NCBI GenBank assembly: GCA_022819805.1
Contig: JAJEGO010000007.1
Location: 1-43,658 of the forward strand
Origin: Candidatus Dadabacteria bacterium
GTDB lineage: Bacteria; Desulfobacterota_D; UBA1144; Nemesobacterales; Nemesobacteraceae
Direction of reading: 5' to 3'
Length of the DNA stretch: 43,658 nucleotides
Notes under the pieces: model-generated
Database searches by the model: none
Told to the model about the DNA's origin: nothing
What the model saw: the letters and a program-made list of their open reading frames with translations, nothing else
Translations under genes and position numbers: made by a program
Part shown: piece by piece, positions 5,399-41,536 of the stretch
Layout: every line of letters begins with the position of its first letter
Position numbering within the stretch: position 1 is the first letter of the stretch

Positions 5399-6649
5399 TT
5401 ATCCCAAAGCTGAGCGTCTTTTAAATGAAACTGCCAAAAACAGGACTGACATAACTAGAAACAGGTTGAATAAGCCGCCTTGAGTTGTATTTCGGGTTCC
5501 CGAGATCGCGCACCCTCCGTCATCTGTAGTCTCCATTTCTGTAGTCTCCATCTCCGGTGTTTCCGTTTCTGGTGTCTCCGATCCTAAGTAGAGTCCGGAA
5601 CCAAAGATGAAGGTTTGACTGGGGTTAAAGGGATTAGGAAAGGGTTCGACATAGCCCAACTTGGGCGAGGAACCGCCGGCGCCGCCGCCGGGGGCTTCGT
5701 CTCCCTCTATATTTGGATCGTCCCAATCATAATTGACAAAGCGCTCGTCTTCCTCTGTCTTCTTTGACGCTTCTATGAGCCTTTCAATGATGTCAACTAG
5801 GGTCGGGTTCTGGCCTCGCAGCAGATTTGTCTGCTCAATATTTCTGTTTCCTCCGTTAAAGATCACGTTGCCTTCGTCATCCATGATCCAGATGTAGGTC
5901 GATACGTGTCTCCAAGGTCCATCCTCGGCCCTGAAGAGCTTCCGTGTTTTTGCTAGATCGATTTGGGAGTTCGTCAAGGCGCTTTCGAAGAAATCAATAG
6001 CCCCTTTCACGAACATTTTCAGTTCCTCTCTGGTATCGACCTCTTCGGCTGTTATGGAGGGAGTTATTGTATCGGCGCCGGGCAATTGGTCATAGGGAAT
6101 ATCCACTACCTCGGGCTGCAGGTCGAAACCGCCGATCAGGATATAAGGCTGCATTGTGAAGGGATCGGTAAACGGGATCGCGTAGCTTCTCTTCTCCCCG
6201 TCGTTGTAATAGTCGACAAACCCTCCAATCGGGGCTTGCGCGCTTAGAAAACCCTGTCCAACTGGGTTTCCTTTACTGTCTTCAAGCATAGACCAGTCCT
6301 CATCCTCAAGTTCCCTGTTGACCGTGTGGGTTTGTACGCCGCCGCTGCCCGTAAGAAGAACAAGGTAGGTGGAACCGTCATTCCAGTCCCCCATCTGATT
6401 TCTGAACTCGTCAACGAGTTCGGTTGCTTCTGCAAAGGTCGTGACGCCCTGCAGGTGAGCTGCCGCGTGCCCTACAAAAGTTTGTAAGGTGAAATCATTG
6501 GTTACATCCGAGGCGGTTGTAGTTAGAGGTATAGGTGAAATATCTGTATGAGGATCACCTTGATGTGCAAAGGCCGGAAACGTGTAGGAAAAAACGCCGA
6601 GCAGCCCCATCACGGAACAGAAAAAAGCCATTAGCCTTAAATTTTTCAT
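5399..6649 (-). CDS. Secreted Cache-domain-like protein with Cys/TM/basic C-terminal sorting-like tail
   Basis: N-terminal signal peptide (MKNLRLMAFFCSVMGLLGVFSYTFPAFA), Cache-like YIWIMDDEGNVIFNGG, C-terminal TDDGGCAISG...LFLVMSVLFLAVSFKRR; start trimmed from 6700 to 6649 where AGGAG precedes ATG. Confidence 0.8.
   Translation of the reverse strand: MKNLRLMAFFCSVMGLLGVFSYTFPAFAHQGDPHTDISPIPLTTTASDVTNDFTLQTFVGHAAAHLQGVTTFAEATELVDEFRNQMGDWNDGSTYLVLLTGSGGVQTHTVNRELEDEDWSMLEDSKGNPVGQGFLSAQAPIGGFVDYYNDGEKRSYAIPFTDPFTMQPYILIGGFDLQPEVVDIPYDQLPGADTITPSITAEEVDTREELKMFVKGAIDFFESALTNSQIDLAKTRKLFRAEDGPWRHVSTYIWIMDDEGNVIFNGGNRNIEQTNLLRGQNPTLVDIIERLIEASKKTEEDERFVNYDWDDPNIEGDEAPGGGAGGSSPKLGYVEPFPNPFNPSQTFIFGSGLYLGSETPETETPEMETTEMETTDDGGCAISGTRNTTQGGLFNLFLVMSVLFLAVSFKRRSALG
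5524..5583. repeat. Four degenerate 15-bp tandem units encoding ETPE(T/M)/METT(E/D) linker
   Basis: ctgtagtctccattt / ctgtagtctccatct / ccggtgtttccgttt / ctggtgtctccgatc. Confidence 0.75.
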
Positions 6650-6724
6650 AATATTCTCCTTTTTGCGTAAATCAGGTGAATTTTGAATTCGCCTAAGCAT
6701 TTTTCCATATGGTAATTGCCCCTA

Positions 6725-6926
6725 TAACTAGCCACTTCCTCCATCATATTTATTAAGGAACCATTCTTTTCGGTTGACAGATTACCGACGTCAACCGAAC
6801 ATCGCAGGCTGTGGAAGCTCCATACGGTCTAGAAGGGATTTTATTCTCCCGCTTAACTGTTTGTCAAGGAAAAATTAGGTTATTTCAGGGTATTACGGAA
6901 CGTTTGGTCCTAACTAGCCACTTCCT
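6725..6926. repeat. 16-bp direct repeat pair TAACTAGCCACTTCCT (6725-6740 and 6911-6926)
   Basis: Exact 16-mer present twice, 186 bp apart, in the noncoding gap. Confidence 0.85.
6769..6799. promoter_or_regulatory. Perfect 10-bp inverted repeat, putative operator
   Basis: TTCGGTTGAC-agattaccgac-GTCAACCGAA. Confidence 0.6.
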
Positions 6927-7124
6927 GCTCCACTCGGGTGAATGGAATTCTCAAACCTTCCCCACATGAGTTCGGCTGATCAATTGCCTGCTTCCACGGG
7001 AAGAGATGTCACCGGGATAAGATGGCTCTGGAAATTTAAAGTACTATACTGCGGGTTTGAGGAAGCGATACAGGGTTTATTGAGCGTGGAGCTGAAAATA
7101 TTTCCGCTAGCCCGAGAGATAAAT

Positions 7125-8864
7125 CTACTTTTTGTATAGGTTGGTTATCGGAAAGCGGCGGTCTTTTCCGAAAGCAAGCGACGTTATCTTTACCCCAGGA
7201 GCGCTTTGCCTTCTTTTGTATTCGTTTGTGTTAACCATCCTGATTACTCTCCGCACGACGCTTTTCTTCTCCCCAAGCTTTACTATCTCGTCAATTCCGA
7301 GGCCGTCTTCCACGTAGGCCTTCAGTATCCTGTCGAGCGTGTCGTATTCGGGAAGCGAGTCTGTATCTTTCTGGTTGGGGCGAAGCTCGGCTGAAGGGGG
7401 CTTTTCAATTACCGATTTCGGTATCATCTGTTTTCCTCGCAGACGGTTGTAATAGTGGGAAAGTTCGTAAACCATGGCCTTGGGTACGTCCTTTATCACC
7501 GCGAACCCCCCGGACATGTCCCCGTAAAGCGTTGAGTAGCCCACCGCCAGTTCGCTTTTGTTCGAGGTGGCGAGCACCAGCCATCCGAACTTGTTTGAAA
7601 GCGCCATGAGAATATTTCCTCTTATTCTCGCTTGGATGTTTTCTTCCGTCACGTCGGCTTCCATTCCTGAGAAAAACTCAGCAAACATTCCCTCGTAGCA
7701 CCTGAAAACGTCTTCTATGGGAATGCTGAGGAGTTCCACTCCGAGGTTGCGCGCGAGTTTTTTCGCGTCGGTGACGCTTCCCTTGGAACTGTACATTGAA
7801 GGCATGGAAACTCCGACGACTTTTGAGGGTCCGACGGCTTCTGCGGCGATAGCGGCCGTAAGCGAGGAATCTATCCCGCCGCTTAAACCGAGCACCACCT
7901 TTTTAAAACCGTTTTTCCTTATGTAATCCCCGGTGCCAAGGACAAGCGCCGAGAAAGCGCCTTTTAGGGGATCTTCCGAGAGATCAACCTGTTTTCCCGG
8001 GATTTTTGCCTTCCGCTTCGTCTTCGGGGGCTTAAGAGTAAACGACTCCAGCTGGTTCTCTTCAAAGGAAAGCTCGTATCTTGTTTTCCTTATGGTCGGC
8101 GTGTTGAGTCTTGATTTGTACACCCTTTCCGTGTTCACGTCACAGACGAGCAGATCCTCCTCGAAGTTGGGCGCGGTGGCGACGATATCTCCCTTTTCGT
8201 CTATGAACATGCTGTTTCCGTCAAACACCAGCTCATCCTGCCCCCCGACCATGTTGCAGTAGGCTATTATGGAGTTATAGTCAACCGCCCTCGTGGCGAG
8301 CATTCTCTCCCTGGCCAGGGGTTTTCCCATGTAGTAGGGGGATGCGGAGAGATTGAATATGATTTGGGCGTTTCCTAGCAGGACCTGGCTTCTTATCGGT
8401 TCCCCGGGGTACCATACATCCTCGCAGATCGTGACCCCGAAAGTCATCTTATTCATTGAGTACACGGGAAACCGTCTTTCTGACTGGAAGTAGCGGTTCT
8501 CGTCGAACACTCCGTAGTTAGGGAGACGGAGTTTGTGATATACGTCAACTACTTCTCCTCTCTGAATTACGGCCGCAGAGTTGAATATGTCGTCTTTTTT
8601 GTCTACGAATCCCACTATGACGACCATGTTGTCCCGGCAGTGTTTCTTTATTTCGTCAAGTGCCCGGATGTTGTCGTCGATGAATTCGGTTTTGAGAAGA
8701 AGGTCTTCGGGGGGATAGCCCGTTACGACGAGTTCGGGGAAGCACAGAATATCTATATCGAGACCCCGCGCCGCCTCGATCGCTTCTGTTATTTTCTTTG
8801 TGTTTCCGGTTATGTCCCCCACGCTCGGGTTAAGCTGGGAGAGCCCGGCCCGCAACTGTTTCAT
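7125..8864 (-). CDS. nadE: NAD+ synthase (glutamine-hydrolysing), nitrilase plus synthetase domains
   Basis: N-terminal CN-hydrolase motifs (CFPELVVTGYPPEDLL, ICEDVW); GLSGGIDSSL. Confidence 0.95.
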   Translation of the reverse strand: MKQLRAGLSQLNPSVGDITGNTKKITEAIEAARGLDIDILCFPELVVTGYPPEDLLLKTEFIDDNIRALDEIKKHCRDNMVVIVGFVDKKDDIFNSAAVIQRGEVVDVYHKLRLPNYGVFDENRYFQSERRFPVYSMNKMTFGVTICEDVWYPGEPIRSQVLLGNAQIIFNLSASPYYMGKPLARERMLATRAVDYNSIIAYCNMVGGQDELVFDGNSMFIDEKGDIVATAPNFEEDLLVCDVNTERVYKSRLNTPTIRKTRYELSFEENQLESFTLKPPKTKRKAKIPGKQVDLSEDPLKGAFSALVLGTGDYIRKNGFKKVVLGLSGGIDSSLTAAIAAEAVGPSKVVGVSMPSMYSSKGSVTDAKKLARNLGVELLSIPIEDVFRCYEGMFAEFFSGMEADVTEENIQARIRGNILMALSNKFGWLVLATSNKSELAVGYSTLYGDMSGGFAVIKDVPKAMVYELSHYYNRLRGKQMIPKSVIEKPPSAELRPNQKDTDSLPEYDTLDRILKAYVEDGLGIDEIVKLGEKKSVVRRVIRMVNTNEYKRRQSAPGVKITSLAFGKDRRFPITNLYKK

Positions 8865-22258: not shown

Positions 22259-23296
22259 CTACGCGATTCCTCTCCCGCTGAAATTTCGCCTCAGCAGAAA
22301 CACAAAGAAAGGAACTCCAACAAGAGACGTAATTATTCCAAGGCGCAGTTCCTGGGGACCCATGACGGTTCTTGCTATGAGATCGGCTACGGGGAGAAAT
22401 ATAGCTCCCGCGATAAAACTTGCGGGCAAAAGCCGGCGATGGTCCACTCCGATCAGCAGTCTTACTGAGTGCGGAATTATAAGTCCGACGAATCCTACGA
22501 TACCGCTTACTGCCACGCTTGCTCCAACTATGAGGGAGGAGAGGATTATCAGGTGTTTTGTCGTTTTTTCGATATCAACGCCGATGGTCTTCGCCGTCTC
22601 GTAGCCGAGAAGCCTTGCGTTTAAGTTCTTGGCGTAGAAAAGCAATGTGACCGAGGCGGCCAGGACGGGCACTGCGGCCATTGCGAAATGTGTCCAGGTG
22701 CGCGAATCGACCCCACCCATTATCCAGAAAAGCATTTCCTTCATGGACCATGCGTTTGATACCGAGAGCACGAAAGTCGTGAGAGAGACAAAAAGCGTAC
22801 CAAGCGCCACTCCGCAGAGAAGAAGAGTTGTGTTCTCTACAAAACCTCTGTAGCGAGATATTCCGTAAACTGCATATGCCGTGAGCAGTGTGCCGGCAAA
22901 AGCGGCAAGAGGGAGCAACAGAAACCACTGCTGATAAATGCCGGTATAGATTGCTAAGACGGCGAAAAACGCTCCTCCGCTTGACCAGCCCAGTATTCCG
23001 GGCTCGGCGAGGGGATTTCTGAACATCGCCTGCATTACTGCTCCTACGATTGAGAGCCCTCCGCCTATGGTCGCGGCGAGCAGGACCCTCGGAAGCCGTA
23101 TGTCCCACACGATAAGCTCCTGTGATTTTTCTACACTCGCTCCGGCGTCTAACCAGAGCAGTTTGCCGGCTATTATGCTGAGTACTTTGTCAAATGGAAC
23201 GCTTACGGCTCCTAGGGATACGCATGCAAGGATGACTAACACAAGCAGGAAGGAGAGTATTATGTATACGGAAAGCGTTTTCTTACCGGTCGGCAT
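22259..23296 (-). CDS. BtuC/FecCD-type ABC transporter permease
   Basis: RLPRVLLAATIGGGLSIVGAVMQAMFRNPLAEPGILGWSSGG; GFVGLIIPHSVRLLIG. Confidence 0.94.
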   Translation of the reverse strand: MPTGKKTLSVYIILSFLLVLVILACVSLGAVSVPFDKVLSIIAGKLLWLDAGASVEKSQELIVWDIRLPRVLLAATIGGGLSIVGAVMQAMFRNPLAEPGILGWSSGGAFFAVLAIYTGIYQQWFLLLPLAAFAGTLLTAYAVYGISRYRGFVENTTLLLCGVALGTLFVSLTTFVLSVSNAWSMKEMLFWIMGGVDSRTWTHFAMAAVPVLAASVTLLFYAKNLNARLLGYETAKTIGVDIEKTTKHLIILSSLIVGASVAVSGIVGFVGLIIPHSVRLLIGVDHRRLLPASFIAGAIFLPVADLIARTVMGPQELRLGIITSLVGVPFFVFLLRRNFSGRGIA

Positions 23297-35834: not shown

Positions 35835-36815
35835 ATGCGCCTGCTAGCGCTTTGTTTAGTCCTGCTTTTCTGTTCCTGCTCCCATGGCGCGGAGAATCTC
35901 TACGAGAGATCCTTTCATTCAATGGGTTCAACCGTAGAGCTCAAATTCTATTCCCCGAGCGAAGAGCTTTTCCACCGGGTTGTTGATGCCTGCGTGGAGA
36001 GGACCAAGGAAATAGACCGGCTTTTCAGCAACTACAGGGATGACAGCGTCCTTGCGGAGGTAAATGTAAACGCAGGGGTCCGTCCCGTTTCCGTTCCCGG
36101 GGAGTTTCTGCGTCTCGTGCGAACCTCGATTCGATACTCCGAACTTACCGACGGAGCTTTTGACATAACTGTCGGCAGCCTCTTTGAACTCTGGCGGGGA
36201 GAGACCGCTTCGGGGCGGCTTCCAGAGGAATCCCGTATCCGTGATGCGCTTGGGTGTACGGGTTTTCGGAAAATAAAGATAGACGAGGCCAAATCCCAGA
36301 TATTCCTTGAGGGAAGCTGCGTCAGGCTCGATTTCGGCGCTATAGGGAAGGGCTACGCGGTTGACGAGATGGTAAGGATCGCTAGGAAAAACGGGATCAC
36401 GAGAGGACTTGTGAATTTCGGGGGAAACATATACGCGATGGATCCTCCCGCAGGCAAAAAATTCTGGGACGTGGGAGTGAGAAAACCCGGAATCGGCAGT
36501 GAAATCATCTCGAAGATTGATCTTGTGAACAAGGGTATCGCGACTTCTGGGGATTATGAGCGTTACTTTGAGTACTCGGGGAAAAGATACTCCCATATAA
36601 TAGATCCCAGAACGGGTTGGTCTGCTGAGGATGTGACCTCCGTTGTAGCCGTTTCGAGAAACGCTACTGAAGCGGACGTTTTCTCGACCGCCGTCTCGGT
36701 TCTTGGTCCGCGAGGCGCGCGGATGTTCGCCCAGAGAGATAAGTCCCTGGGTTTTCTGGTCATTGAGAAAAACGGGGAGAAGAAATCCTGCTTCGGGTCT
36801 TATGCGTGCCGCTAG
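35835..36815 (+). CDS. apbE: FAD:protein FMN transferase (lipoprotein)
   Basis: Lipobox-like LLFCSCS; MGSTVELKFYS, LDFGAIGKGYAVDEMV, VNFGGNIYAM, HIIDPRTGW. Confidence 0.95.
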   Translation: MRLLALCLVLLFCSCSHGAENLYERSFHSMGSTVELKFYSPSEELFHRVVDACVERTKEIDRLFSNYRDDSVLAEVNVNAGVRPVSVPGEFLRLVRTSIRYSELTDGAFDITVGSLFELWRGETASGRLPEESRIRDALGCTGFRKIKIDEAKSQIFLEGSCVRLDFGAIGKGYAVDEMVRIARKNGITRGLVNFGGNIYAMDPPAGKKFWDVGVRKPGIGSEIISKIDLVNKGIATSGDYERYFEYSGKRYSHIIDPRTGWSAEDVTSVVAVSRNATEADVFSTAVSVLGPRGARMFAQRDKSLGFLVIEKNGEKKSCFGSYACR

Positions 36816-36817
36816 TG

Positions 36818-37315
36818 TTATTGAGGCGGCTTCGGGTACTCGGGCTTTTTCCTGTAGAGGTAATAGGTTACGAAGATGATCAGGTAAAGAAGAGATACCT
36901 GAAGGACGACGAAGGAACCGATTTTGACATAGGCGAATTCGGCGCTTACGTATCTTACGAGCCAGCCGCCGGCTATATCGAGAAAAGCGGAGCCGTACGA
37001 CGCTACTATCACAAGGAGTTTCTCGGTGGAGCTCCTGTTCGTGAAAAGAAAAAGATGGTTAAGGGTTACAAGTAGAACGGCCATTGAGAAAAAGTGGAAA
37101 TGAGCTTCCTCGAGCAGCCCAAAATAGCTTCTCGGAGGCCTGAAACTTTCCTCGGACCCCCTGTAATACTCAACCACGCTATCAAAGCTGAACCCTATCT
37201 TCAGAAAAAACAGCAGGTTGGTTAACCATAAAAAGAGAAAGAAAATCGTCGTGAGCAAGACGATGAGTTTCAACAGGTCGTTTTTTCTTATGTCTCCTGA
37301 GATGAAGAATTTCAT
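36818..37315 (-). CDS. Uncharacterised four-TM membrane protein with intramembrane His
   Basis: Multi-TM ORF; HFHFFSMAVLLVTLNHLFLF. Confidence 0.78.
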   Translation of the reverse strand: MKFFISGDIRKNDLLKLIVLLTTIFFLFLWLTNLLFFLKIGFSFDSVVEYYRGSEESFRPPRSYFGLLEEAHFHFFSMAVLLVTLNHLFLFTNRSSTEKLLVIVASYGSAFLDIAGGWLVRYVSAEFAYVKIGSFVVLQVSLLYLIIFVTYYLYRKKPEYPKPPQ

Positions 37316-37335
37316 TTTTTCTCCCGGATGGATAA

Positions 37336-37887
37336 TTAGGAATCAGTCGGAATGCCAAACATGACTCTGTAGACGGCGAGAATCCTTCTCGTAGCTTGCG
37401 AAAAAGATACCGCACTTATCGTGGCTCCGGTAATGTTGGGAACTCCTTTTCCTACTTTCATTCTGTCCATCCTAGTTTTTTCCAGAAACAAGTTTATCCA
37501 TTTTCCGCTCGGCATGTAATCCGTGGGTTCGAAAAATGCGAGAGTCTCGGCGTGGCGAAGTGTCCCGTCAGGATTTATTACGAACAGTACGGTTTCGGTA
37601 AGGGTTCTAAGAGTGTGGGTATCGATAACCGCGTAGCCCGTCTCTTTTCCGCCGGACTTTGCTATGTAGAAGGTGTAGAGTCTTGAATCTACCTCGGCCC
37701 TGGCCATTTTGCCTACGTTCTCGGCCTGGAGCTCAGTGAGAAAAACGTGTCTTTTTTCTATTTCTTCCGCTTCGGGGAAAACAAGCCCAAGCGCTTTGCC
37801 CTTGGTAAGAAAGACCTTAGCGGATACATCTCCGGCACCATGCAGAAAAAACACAAGCGTTATTAGAAAAAGGATTCTCATAGTCAT
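37336..37887 (-). CDS. Secreted FMN-binding domain protein
   Basis: Signal peptide; GKGVPNITGATISAVSFSQATRRI matches the (S/T)GATx(S/T) covalent flavinylation motif class. Confidence 0.88.
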   Translation of the reverse strand: MTMRILFLITLVFFLHGAGDVSAKVFLTKGKALGLVFPEAEEIEKRHVFLTELQAENVGKMARAEVDSRLYTFYIAKSGGKETGYAVIDTHTLRTLTETVLFVINPDGTLRHAETLAFFEPTDYMPSGKWINLFLEKTRMDRMKVGKGVPNITGATISAVSFSQATRRILAVYRVMFGIPTDS

Positions 37888-37893
37888 GATGGA

Positions 37894-37929
37894 ACAAGGG
37901 CAACATTCTATCTTGAATATTGCCCTTGT
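37894..37929. repeat. Perfect 10-bp stem-loop immediately upstream of FMN-binding gene start
   Basis: ACAAGGGCAA - 16 nt - TTGCCCTTGT; ends 6 nt before the minus-strand ATG. Confidence 0.85.
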
Positions 37930-37947
37930 GAAGAGAGAGAAAAGAGA

Positions 37948-37982
37948 GAGAAAAAAAGAAACATAAACCCGCGCCCGTTTAT
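37948..37982 (-). terminator. Possible intrinsic terminator after porin gene
   Basis: Minus strand ATAAAC-gggcgcgg-GTTTAT followed by GTTTCTTTTTTTC. Confidence 0.45.
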
Positions 37983-38003
37983 CGCGGATTTAAGTCCTAT
38001 ATC

Positions 38004-39317
38004 CTAAAACACATATCCCAATCCAAAGTTAAACTGATTCTTCGCCTCACTCGCTTCGTTATCAAGATTCTGATATTCGGCTTTTATGACCACGTTTGGA
38101 ATCGGCTTGTAATTTACCCCGATAGTGTACTGGGTCCTTTCATTTGCTAGGTTTCTTTCATACCCGGCGGGAACCTTTTCTTGGGTATCAAATTTTTCAT
38201 ACCGGAAAAAAGGCGCTAGGTACTCCATGTACTTGCTTCCGGAGTTAAGCGCGGAGAAGATGTTGTATGCTCCGAGAACATACCAGCCGGACTGCTCTTC
38301 TCCAATGGATGCGTTGCCTTCAAGCTCGTTGAGCTGGTTTATAAGCGCGGCGTCATCAAGGCTTGTCCACACAGACAATGCCCTTAAGTCAAGTCCCGCG
38401 TACTGAAACTGCGCGTCCACTTCGTACATCTGGAAGAGCCCGTCTATCGTCTGGCCGTTAACTTCCTCGTCCTGTCCCGTGTTGCCGTAGAACATGGACC
38501 CTCCGATTTTAATCCCCGGAATCGGATCGTACTCAAGCCTTCCGACAAAGGCTATGTCGTCGAATCTTGCCCTGTTTCCCTTGATCCGAAGACTCCTGTT
38601 GTCCGATGCCTTGAATCCCCGAGCATCGGCGCTCGACATTGCGTAGGCTCTGTAAGAAAGCTCACCGGCACCACCCAGATCAAACGTTCCGTGCGCCCCG
38701 GCTCCGGACTCTCTCCATGTACTCGGAATTATCCGCCTCTCCACCTCGGGTCGCCCCACTCCGTAGAACGTCGTCGGCTCGTGAATCTCGTTTACGATTC
38801 CGAAAGGAGTCAGGAGAAGACCGCCCCTAAGATTGAACTGATCGCTTATAAGAAAATCGATCAGCGCGAACTCAACCGATGCCGAGCCCGCACTCCCGTC
38901 CTTGTTTTTTCCCGTCGTGCCGTGCTCGAACTCTATTTCCGAGTTGAAAACTATGTGGTCGTTGTACTTGTAGCCGTTATAGAGAACCAGTCTCAGGGTA
39001 TCCGCTATGTCGTGCGAATCCTCTTTTATGTTGCCTACAAGCAATTCACCATATCCTCCGAATGATACTCCCTGGTCAACCCTGTAGACCTTTGAAGCCG
39101 CCGGGGCCACACCGAATTCCGCCTCATAGACCGGAGGTTCCGTTACCGAAGCGGATTTAATGGCTTCTATCTCGTCCGCGAGAACCTTTATCTGTTCCTC
39201 AAGCTTTTTTATCCTTTCCTCGGAAGCTGTACGCGCGAGTGAAGTCTGCGTGCCAGCGAGTGAAAAAACCAAGAAAGAAATGAAAAGCATTTTCCACCGC
39301 CTTGTATAACTAACCAT
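38004..39317 (-). CDS. Outer-membrane porin-like beta-barrel protein with N-terminal coiled coil
   Basis: Signal peptide; SEERIKKLEEQIKVLADEIEAIK coiled coil; alternating beta strands, C-terminal NQFNFGLGYVF. Confidence 0.82.
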   Translation of the reverse strand: MVSYTRRWKMLFISFLVFSLAGTQTSLARTASEERIKKLEEQIKVLADEIEAIKSASVTEPPVYEAEFGVAPAASKVYRVDQGVSFGGYGELLVGNIKEDSHDIADTLRLVLYNGYKYNDHIVFNSEIEFEHGTTGKNKDGSAGSASVEFALIDFLISDQFNLRGGLLLTPFGIVNEIHEPTTFYGVGRPEVERRIIPSTWRESGAGAHGTFDLGGAGELSYRAYAMSSADARGFKASDNRSLRIKGNRARFDDIAFVGRLEYDPIPGIKIGGSMFYGNTGQDEEVNGQTIDGLFQMYEVDAQFQYAGLDLRALSVWTSLDDAALINQLNELEGNASIGEEQSGWYVLGAYNIFSALNSGSKYMEYLAPFFRYEKFDTQEKVPAGYERNLANERTQYTIGVNYKPIPNVVIKAEYQNLDNEASEAKNQFNFGLGYVF

Positions 39318-39361
39318 CCATTAACATCCTCCTTTTGGATTTATTAGGCTTGCATAAGTAA

Positions 39362-39450
39362 TAGATATTATGGATATTTAATATCTACGACGCAGATAAA
39401 TAACATTCTGGAGTGATGATGTCAAGAATTTTTTAAAAAAAATATCTGCG
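39362..39450. promoter_or_regulatory. Cluster of palindromic sites in divergent porin/Ftr1 regulatory region
   Basis: TAGATATTA-8-TAATATCTA (39362-39387); TATCTaCGaCGcAGATA (39382-39398); TATCTGCG (39443-39450). Confidence 0.55.
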
Positions 39451-39601
39451 AAGAAAAAAACAAGCTGGATTACCTATCTGATTCTCCCTCTGCTACCGAA
39501 GATAAAGCGGAAGATAACGGCGATGAGGATTATTGACAATAAAGGTCTAGAATGGTAGAAAGTACGCTCCCGATTCCCATATGCGGAAATAGTCATAAAC
39601 C

Positions 39602-41536
39602 ATGCTGAAAAAAAGTCTTTTTCGTATAACCGTTCTCGTACTCTTTCTTTTTCCGGGGCTTTCCTACGCTGGGGAGATAGACAGAATCCTTTCTCTTGTC
39701 GACTACATAGGAGGGGATTACTCAAATGCCGTAAAAGATGGGGAGATAATAAACGAATTTGAGTATCAGGAAATGCTGGATTTTTCTTCCGTAGCGGTTG
39801 ACCTGTGGGAAAAAACGGCTGAGAAGAGGGAAGGAACGGCTGATTTTTCCGAAAAATTCGCACATCTGCGCTCAATCATAGTATCCAAAGGCCCTGTCTC
39901 AGAAGTGGAAAGTCTTGCCGGTGAGCTGAAGGGGCGGATCATTTCGGCCTATAACATAGAGCCCTACCCGGCTAAGATTCCGGATTACGAAAGCGGAAAA
40001 GAGCTTTACGCAGAGAACTGTTCCTCCTGTCACGGGCTCTCCGGAAGGCCGGACGATGCTTTCTCCAAGACCCTCAATCCTCCTCCCACGGATTTCACAG
40101 ATCCTGACATAAACCTCGGGCTCTCACCTTTTAAAGTTTACAACACCACTACTTTCGGGATCGAAGGTACCGCCATGACCTCGTTTGAGGAGGTGCTTGA
40201 CGAAAAACAGAAGTGGGATGTGGCGTTTTACGTTCTCTCGCTTGGGTATCCGGATATTCCAACAGGCGGGAGCGGCTCAGGACTTTCCTCCCAGAACATC
40301 TCGGATGACACGAGAGAACTTGAGAATCTCGCTCTGTTGAGCAATGCGGAGATTCTGCTGGATTTGGGAGTCGGGGGTCGTGGCGAGGACGTTCTTTTTT
40401 CCCTGAGAACTGCTTACCTTAGGGACGGAATTGCCGGGGATGCTTCGGAAGCTATAGCCTATACGAGGAGGAAACTAGAAGAAGCCATTGTTCTTTACGA
40501 GGACGGGAGAAAAGATGAAGCATTCAGGGAGGCTCTTGACGGGTACTTGGGAGGATTTCAGAAAATTGAACCCGCTTTGGTCTCGAAAAAAAGATCGCTT
40601 GTTCTTGAGGTTGAGAAGAAAATGGGATTTTTCAGGTCATTGGTGATGTCTGACCGGGACTCCTCCGAGCTTTATGATCTGAAAGCGAGCATAGAGGAGA
40701 ATCTTCGCGAGTCAGAACGCATCCTAAAAGGCGGCTCATCGCTCGGCAAATACCTGAGTTTCGTTAATTCTTTTGCCATAATACTCAGAGAAGCGCTTGA
40801 GGCCCTGCTTATAATCGCGGCCATTATCGCCGCTTTGGCGCATTCAGGTAACCGCGGGATGATAAGATACGTTCACTACGGGTGGGTGCTTGCCATCTTT
40901 GCGGGACTGGCGACGTGGGTTGCTGCGAGAACCATAATAGATATCTCGGGGGCCAGGAGGGAGATTGTGGAAGGAGCGACTTCTCTTCTGGCTGCCGCGA
41001 TTCTTTTTTACATAAGTTACTGGCTTGTCTCAAAGGCGGACGTAAAAAAATGGAAGGAATACGTCCGCTCGAAGACTCAGGGCGCGCTTACCCGCAGAAG
41101 CGGCCTCACTCTTGCTTTCGTTTCGTTTCTTGCCGTCTACAGGGAAGCTTTCGAGACGACGCTTTTTTATCAGGCGCTTTTCTATCAGACTGGTTCATCC
41201 ACGCCACACGTGATCTATGGACTTGTCGCGGGAGTGGCGGTTGTGTTCGTAATAGCTTTTCTTATGTACAGGTTTACCCTCAGGATTCCTCTTAAGTACT
41301 TTTTCTCCTTCACGAGCGTTTTCCTCTACCTGCTCTGTTTCATACTTCTCGGCAAGGGAATACTTGAACTCCAGGAGGCGGGAATTATTTCTTCAACTAC
41401 GGCGCATTTCATTCCTTACATGGATACTCTGGGGATTTATCCCTCTTATGAGACTGCTATCCCCCAAGCTGTCCTCCTTCTCCTTGCCTTTTCGTTGTTT
41501 GCACGAAATTACGTCTACCGGGAGAAACATTCATAA
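39602..41536 (+). CDS. Ftr1-type iron permease with N-terminal cytochrome c domain
   Basis: CSSCHG heme motif; Ftr1 REALEALLII and REAFETTLFY (REXXE-type) in a multi-TM C-terminal half. Confidence 0.92.
   Translation: MLKKSLFRITVLVLFLFPGLSYAGEIDRILSLVDYIGGDYSNAVKDGEIINEFEYQEMLDFSSVAVDLWEKTAEKREGTADFSEKFAHLRSIIVSKGPVSEVESLAGELKGRIISAYNIEPYPAKIPDYESGKELYAENCSSCHGLSGRPDDAFSKTLNPPPTDFTDPDINLGLSPFKVYNTTTFGIEGTAMTSFEEVLDEKQKWDVAFYVLSLGYPDIPTGGSGSGLSSQNISDDTRELENLALLSNAEILLDLGVGGRGEDVLFSLRTAYLRDGIAGDASEAIAYTRRKLEEAIVLYEDGRKDEAFREALDGYLGGFQKIEPALVSKKRSLVLEVEKKMGFFRSLVMSDRDSSELYDLKASIEENLRESERILKGGSSLGKYLSFVNSFAIILREALEALLIIAAIIAALAHSGNRGMIRYVHYGWVLAIFAGLATWVAARTIIDISGARREIVEGATSLLAAAILFYISYWLVSKADVKKWKEYVRSKTQGALTRRSGLTLAFVSFLAVYREAFETTLFYQALFYQTGSSTPHVIYGLVAGVAVVFVIAFLMYRFTLRIPLKYFFSFTSVFLYLLCFILLGKGILELQEAGIISSTTAHFIPYMDTLGIYPSYETAIPQAVLLLLAFSLFARNYVYREKHS

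Follow-up and report, generated by a model that had tools for sequence, protein, structure and literature searches.

The window analysed in this work is a stretch of 43,658 nucleotides (contig JAJEGO010000007.1) from the 1.57-Mb draft genome, in 71 contigs, of a Candidatus Dadabacteria bacterium, and our subject is a group of five genes located between positions 35835 and 41536. Three of them form a run on the minus strand, in the order outer-membrane porin (38004-39317), secreted flavin mononucleotide (FMN)-binding protein (37336-37887) and a small membrane protein (36818-37315) that we call TM4. On the plus strand, the gene of ApbE (the flavin adenine dinucleotide:protein FMN transferase; 35835-36815) is convergent with this run, and a gene encoding a fusion of cytochrome c with the iron permease Ftr1 (39602-41536) is divergent from it, an intergenic region of 284 bases separating it from the porin gene. 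The original prediction, made from the letters of the window, had named the same five genes without stating this arrangement, and its coordinates and its reading of the genes are confirmed.

The cytochrome c-Ftr1 protein matches both the FTR1 (PF03239, E-value 1e-28, 100.7 bits versus a cut-off of 25.3) and the Cytochrom_C (E 6e-10) profiles of Pfam, and it contains one heme site (CSSCH, 40019-40033) and both REXXE motifs, REALE at residues 396-400 (40787-40801) and REAFE at residues 514-518 (41141-41155); with the NCBIfam model of EfeU it scores 119.6 bits, missing the cut-off of 255. The porin, which is the first gene of the minus-strand run, is recognised by its conserved neighbourhood and by weak Pfam matches only (Porin_4 and BBP2). 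Two promoter-like blocks, both conserved in six genomes, lie in the intergenic region: TTGACA-17-TATTTA (39397-39425, minus strand) would serve the porin run, and TTGACA-17-TAGAAA (39533-39561, plus strand) the cytochrome c-Ftr1 gene. A strict promoter scan did not call either of them.

ApbE, a probable lipoprotein, is the single match of its family in the genome (PF02424, E 8e-80, 268.6 bits versus a cut-off of 25.6), and the genome also has one FMN protein of the module family. The latter scores 16.1 bits with the Pfam profile FMN_bind (PF04205), under the 22-bit cut-off; a profile built from 19 members reaches the RnfG subunits in the solved structures of two Rnf complexes (E 2.8e-6), the alignment pairing the TGATI block of the FMN protein with the TGSTI/TGATI block of RnfG, and the AlphaFold2 model, of moderate quality (pLDDT 71), has RnfG and NqrC as its top folds in the PDB (E 0.002-0.1). 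The protein shares with RnfG and NqrC the fold and the FMN-threonine motif, and it differs from them in being, as judged from its neighbourhood, a single secreted protein, whereas RnfG and NqrC are subunits of the Rnf and Nqr complexes. Its residues 153-158 (37414-37431, minus strand) read TGATIS, in line with the flavinylation motif [S/T]GA[S/T], and Thr156, invariant in 19/19 relatives, is the predicted FMN attachment residue, with ApbE, on the grounds of family and motif, as the putative transferase. Additionally, in three loci from outside the phylum (L093, L094 and L096) the FMN and ApbE domains lie within one open frame, which supports the action of ApbE on the FMN protein of the module.

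Searches of Pfam, NCBIfam and the PDB give no match for TM4, which has 165 residues, and the original prediction had not recognised it in this combination either. Its AlphaFold2 model (mean pLDDT 80) has four long helices (residues 13-40, 64-90, 96-122 and 125-154); a fold search of the PDB with this model gave nothing (best E 1.6), a bare helix bundle being uninformative, and profile searches of the PDB with narrow and wide alignments returned nothing usable. The protein has only three histidines, H72, H74 and H87, which in an alignment of 36 members are present in 36, 35 and 23 sequences, respectively. Near-universal conservation is seen only around H72 and H74, and TM4 and its relatives make up a family that has an H-x-H signature and for which no public model exists. 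The positive-inside rule would place H72 and H74 where helix 2 meets the periplasm, with H87 lying 15 residues further into the membrane. Matches of some distant members to Acyl_transf_3, DUF1294 and LPG_synthase_TM were rejected, being isolated and mutually inconsistent. In one locus (L085, 4016-4960) TM4 occurs as a tandem pair: the first copy retains H72 alone, the second has lost the H-x-H pair, and their functions may have split. No plasmid records carrying the family were found.

Within the phylum, 42 of 58 genomes contain TM4; 41 of these 42 also encode the FMN protein, and the other 16 have neither (P = 2e-13). A strong ApbE match is found in 40 of the 42 genomes, versus 3 of the 16 without TM4 (P = 2e-8). 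Most of the genomes compared in this work are drafts, so that gene absences may be gaps. A scan of species genomes for TM4 gave 20 loci, in which the porin, the FMN gene and TM4 keep a constant order and strand wherever the contig reaches. Two members of the window's genus (G018 and G027) are missing TM4, the FMN protein and ApbE jointly. In a deep-branching family with genomes of about 1 Mb, three loci (L058, L053 and L054) carry on one strand ApbE, the porin, the FMN gene, TM4, a secreted protein of 116 residues and a stand-alone Ftr1. A small secreted helical protein, with no Pfam match, accompanies the module in this family, either between TM4 and Ftr1 or before ApbE (L058 8536-8886, L053 7723-8073, L054 7845-8195, L051 10647-11039, L052 10830-11201).

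The relation with Ftr1 is looser. In 15 genomes, which belong to two separate branches of the phylum, a distance of 0.5-4 kb separates the permease from TM4, and in other families it is located elsewhere in the genome; given that its presence is weakly associated with that of TM4 (P = 0.07), the idea of an obligatory link was dropped. Since some lineages keep the module without a nearby or detectable Ftr1, the core is formed by the porin, the FMN protein, TM4 and ApbE, with Ftr1 as a frequent, replaceable companion. In L015/L061 a cytochrome c adjoins the porin-FMN-TM4 trio.

Outside the phylum, in a sample of 387 genomes, TM4 is present in 28 genomes from 25 families. In about 20 of the 28 the FMN gene is clearly adjacent; ApbE, either close by or fused, is seen in about 15, and a porin close by likewise in about 15. 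The original prediction was to be abandoned if these genes did not occur together in related genomes; the comparison of neighbourhoods finds them together both within and beyond the phylum, and it is because of this conserved linkage that we do not attribute the grouping to chance. ApbE and the cytochrome c-Ftr1 gene are on the strand opposite to the porin run, and some sister families have Ftr1 at another place in the genome, as would be expected of unrelated genes that are neighbours by accident; given the domain fusions and a linkage kept within and beyond the phylum, we find this explanation hardly credible.

The neighbours of TM4 outside the phylum connect the module with iron. Of the 28 genomes, 7 (5 of the 25 families) have FeoB or Ftr1 no more than 10 kb away from TM4, whereas random placement would give 0.17-0.2, an excess of about 30-fold (P about 1e-6 by family), in a test where Ftr1 was a guess made beforehand by the original prediction (3 genomes) and FeoB was added after the loci had been seen. 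In two loci (L081 and L087), a fusion of Ftr1 with FtrD, FtsX-type permeases and an ATP-binding cassette (ABC) ATPase stand beside the module, which is the layout of P19-type iron uptake systems. One locus has fur and feoB as neighbours (L103), another a DtxR-type regulator and feoB (L094), and the genomes of L093 and L106 have feoB next to TM4 as well. Imelysin and di-heme oxidoreductases are found near the module in L079, and a TonB receptor in L102. In L096, Ftr1, a barrel protein, a CxxCH protein, the FMN-ApbE fusion and TM4 follow in a row. One protein of this last locus (6039-7460), placed between Ftr1, the porin and the FMN-ApbE fusion, has an N-terminal CxxCH and a barrel-like remainder, and presumably resembles cytochrome-porin fusions of the Cyc2 kind.

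The regulatory sites point in the same direction. Perfect Fur boxes (TGANAATNATTNTCA) are found upstream of the porin in six loci from related genera (L006, L007, L010, L012, L017 and L060), and 918 kb of loci contain 9 perfect matches (among which L012 and L062 are the same place) versus 0 for the reversed pattern used as control; boxes with one mismatch precede module genes in L081, L090 and L096. No canonical Fur box is present in the window or in its genus. There, at the place where related genera have the Fur box before the porin, stands the palindrome TGGATATTnAATATCyA (39371-39387, defined by an alignment of six genomes), a candidate metalloregulator operator. It lies immediately downstream of a promoter-like block that is likewise conserved, and 12/12 module-bearing genomes of the genus retain it. 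A cytochrome c-Rrf2-SufBCD operon also has the palindrome at its promoter, the cytochrome of this operon sharing 60% identity with the cytochrome c that adjoins the trio in L061, and in G018, a genus member without the module, the palindrome precedes an imelysin-DHOR-porin operon, which could be an alternative iron system (the loci concerned are L158, L159, L160, L164, L165 and L161). It marks a candidate iron-related regulon of the window's genus, for which a Fur-type or an Rrf2 regulator was considered; the window genome encodes three Fur-family proteins. The original prediction had proposed an iron-uptake module working with Ftr1. Its link to iron is supported by the FeoB, Ftr1 and P19-type neighbours and by the Fur boxes, but Ftr1 is not a necessary partner: in some lineages that keep the module no Ftr1 was found, and others have FeoB next to it.

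Based on these observations, we consider it rather likely that the five genes of the window belong to an iron-regulated, flavinylated periplasmic electron-transfer module for iron acquisition, which is probably ferric-reducing. Directly, this rests on the gene content, its conserved linkage, the linkage to iron transporters and the Fur-type sites, the latter being sequence matches. In the mechanism that we propose, ApbE would attach FMN to Thr156 of the secreted RnfG/NqrC-like protein; TM4 would draw electrons out of the membrane, with quinol as the most likely donor and heme b as a probable intermediate, and would pass them to the FMN protein, which could then reduce ferric iron, or ferric complexes, admitted by the porin. 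The resulting Fe(II) would enter through an inner-membrane permease, in this genome cytochrome c-Ftr1 and elsewhere a stand-alone Ftr1, a P19-type Ftr1 system or FeoB. The electron path via TM4, the flavinylation by the ApbE of the window and the porin as entry for iron had been suggested by the original prediction, and all three are plausible.

Several observations weigh against this interpretation. In 21 of the 28 loci outside the phylum there is no FeoB or Ftr1 within 10 kb, and Ftr1 was not found in six phylum genomes that keep the module (G044-G047, G050 and G051). The flavinylation motif is altered in some of the phylum's FMN proteins (SGSTIS, SNSTIS or TAATIS). A universal path over two hemes, at H72 and H87, was rejected, since H87 is missing in 13 of the 36 members and such a path is therefore not general. 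Finally, the fusion of cytochrome c to Ftr1, together with the multicopper oxidase that overlaps TM4 in L082 (where an ABC permease is also near), could mean oxidation.

This last point is central to an alternative in which the electrons flow inwards: iron would be oxidised while passing Ftr1, cytochrome c would take the electron, and the FMN protein and TM4 would return it to the quinone pool, the module acting as an electron sink for ferroxidation-coupled uptake. Ferroxidation-coupled transport by Ftr1 is known from Fet3-Ftr1 and EfeUOB, and both the fusion of the window and the cytochrome c beside the trio in L015/L061 fit with it. Nevertheless, the FeoB neighbours require no oxidation, and the deep-branching family pairs Ftr1 with the module in an operon without a cytochrome, so that we regard inward flow as unlikely; the reducing direction is favoured because the neighbour FeoB carries Fe(II). 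The loci without a nearby permease and the phylum genomes without Ftr1 would fit with a reading in which the genes encode a general periplasmic redox module, for respiration or stress, regulated by iron only as an iron-sparing flavin substitute for cytochromes and with a porin that imports some other substrate; the replacement of iron by flavin under iron limitation has been discussed (PMC8238504). Against such a module stand the permeases, found nearby about 30 times more often than expected, and the P19-type, FeoB-Fur and FeoB-DtxR neighbours, and we judge it improbable.

The ferric-reducing module that we favour has relatives among known systems. In the P19-type iron uptake of C. jejuni (1649-1656, of the FetMP/FtrABCD kind), an FMN-binding protein replaces thioredoxin in several phyla (PMC6083913). 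Both combine the Ftr1 permease with a redox protein outside the cytoplasm, a Fur box is common to both, and the P19-type operon itself is directly beside the module in L081 and L087. The window differs in that its Ftr1 has no P19, FtrD (PF10080), FtsX permeases or ATPase beside it: the neighbours of the cytochrome c-Ftr1 gene are MscS, the ApbE module and trigger factor, which do not make up a P19-type layout. Relative to that system, the module adds the porin, ApbE and the H-x-H membrane protein. With EfeUOB and with cytochrome c-Ftr1 permeases, the fusion of the window shares the Ftr1/EfeU domain and both REXXE motifs, but, unlike in EfeUOB, no EfeO or EfeB is adjacent and a flavin carrier and a membrane protein are found instead.

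Regarding TM4, the membrane carriers known to be associated with flavinylation are NapH-, MsrQ-, PepSY-, DsbD- and Rnf/Nqr-like (PMC8238504), and histidine-bearing membrane cytochromes of the DUF4405/FezC kind also occur beside apbE (PMC11334425). TM4 resembles all of these in being small, histidine-bearing, near apbE and an FMN-binding protein, and linked to iron; it differs in that none of its 36 members has a Pfam match to any of them, the domains of the MsrQ, NapH, DsbD and Rnf/Nqr membrane carriers being absent from the matches with E up to 1. Kinship with DUF4405 or PepSY_TM was rejected, as far as sequence goes, for the same lack of Pfam matches and for hhalign probabilities under 2%, in a comparison that used DUF4405 and PepSY_TM sequences and left out FezC itself.

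The joining of flavinylation with Ftr1 iron uptake was already known (PMC8238504, PMC6083913). The TM4 family and the porin-FMN-TM4-ApbE unit appear to be undescribed, neither having been found in the searchable literature, supplementary tables excepted; because earlier surveys found flavinylation clusters through Pfam domains, a membrane partner without a Pfam model would be missed by them. The module is probably a widespread, undescribed route for electrons to iron outside the cytoplasm, and there is a fair chance that TM4 represents a new class of carrier. More tentatively, and as a possibility that we hold with less conviction, TM4 may be an undescribed class of membrane electron carrier partnering flavinylated proteins, in the form of a minimal b-type cytochrome or quinol oxidase, and may form with the FMN protein, ApbE and the porin a widespread ferric reductase that serves Ftr1, P19-type systems or FeoB. 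If the module works as proposed, TM4 would provide the membrane step in iron systems where the origin of the periplasmic electrons has yet to be explained, the porin would suggest an outer-membrane route that P19-type operons lack, and the link of ApbE with FeoB/Ftr1 iron uptake would become directly testable. The window also encodes, apart from the module, an ABC permease of the FecCD type (siderophore, heme or B12 uptake; 22259-23296, E 4e-90).

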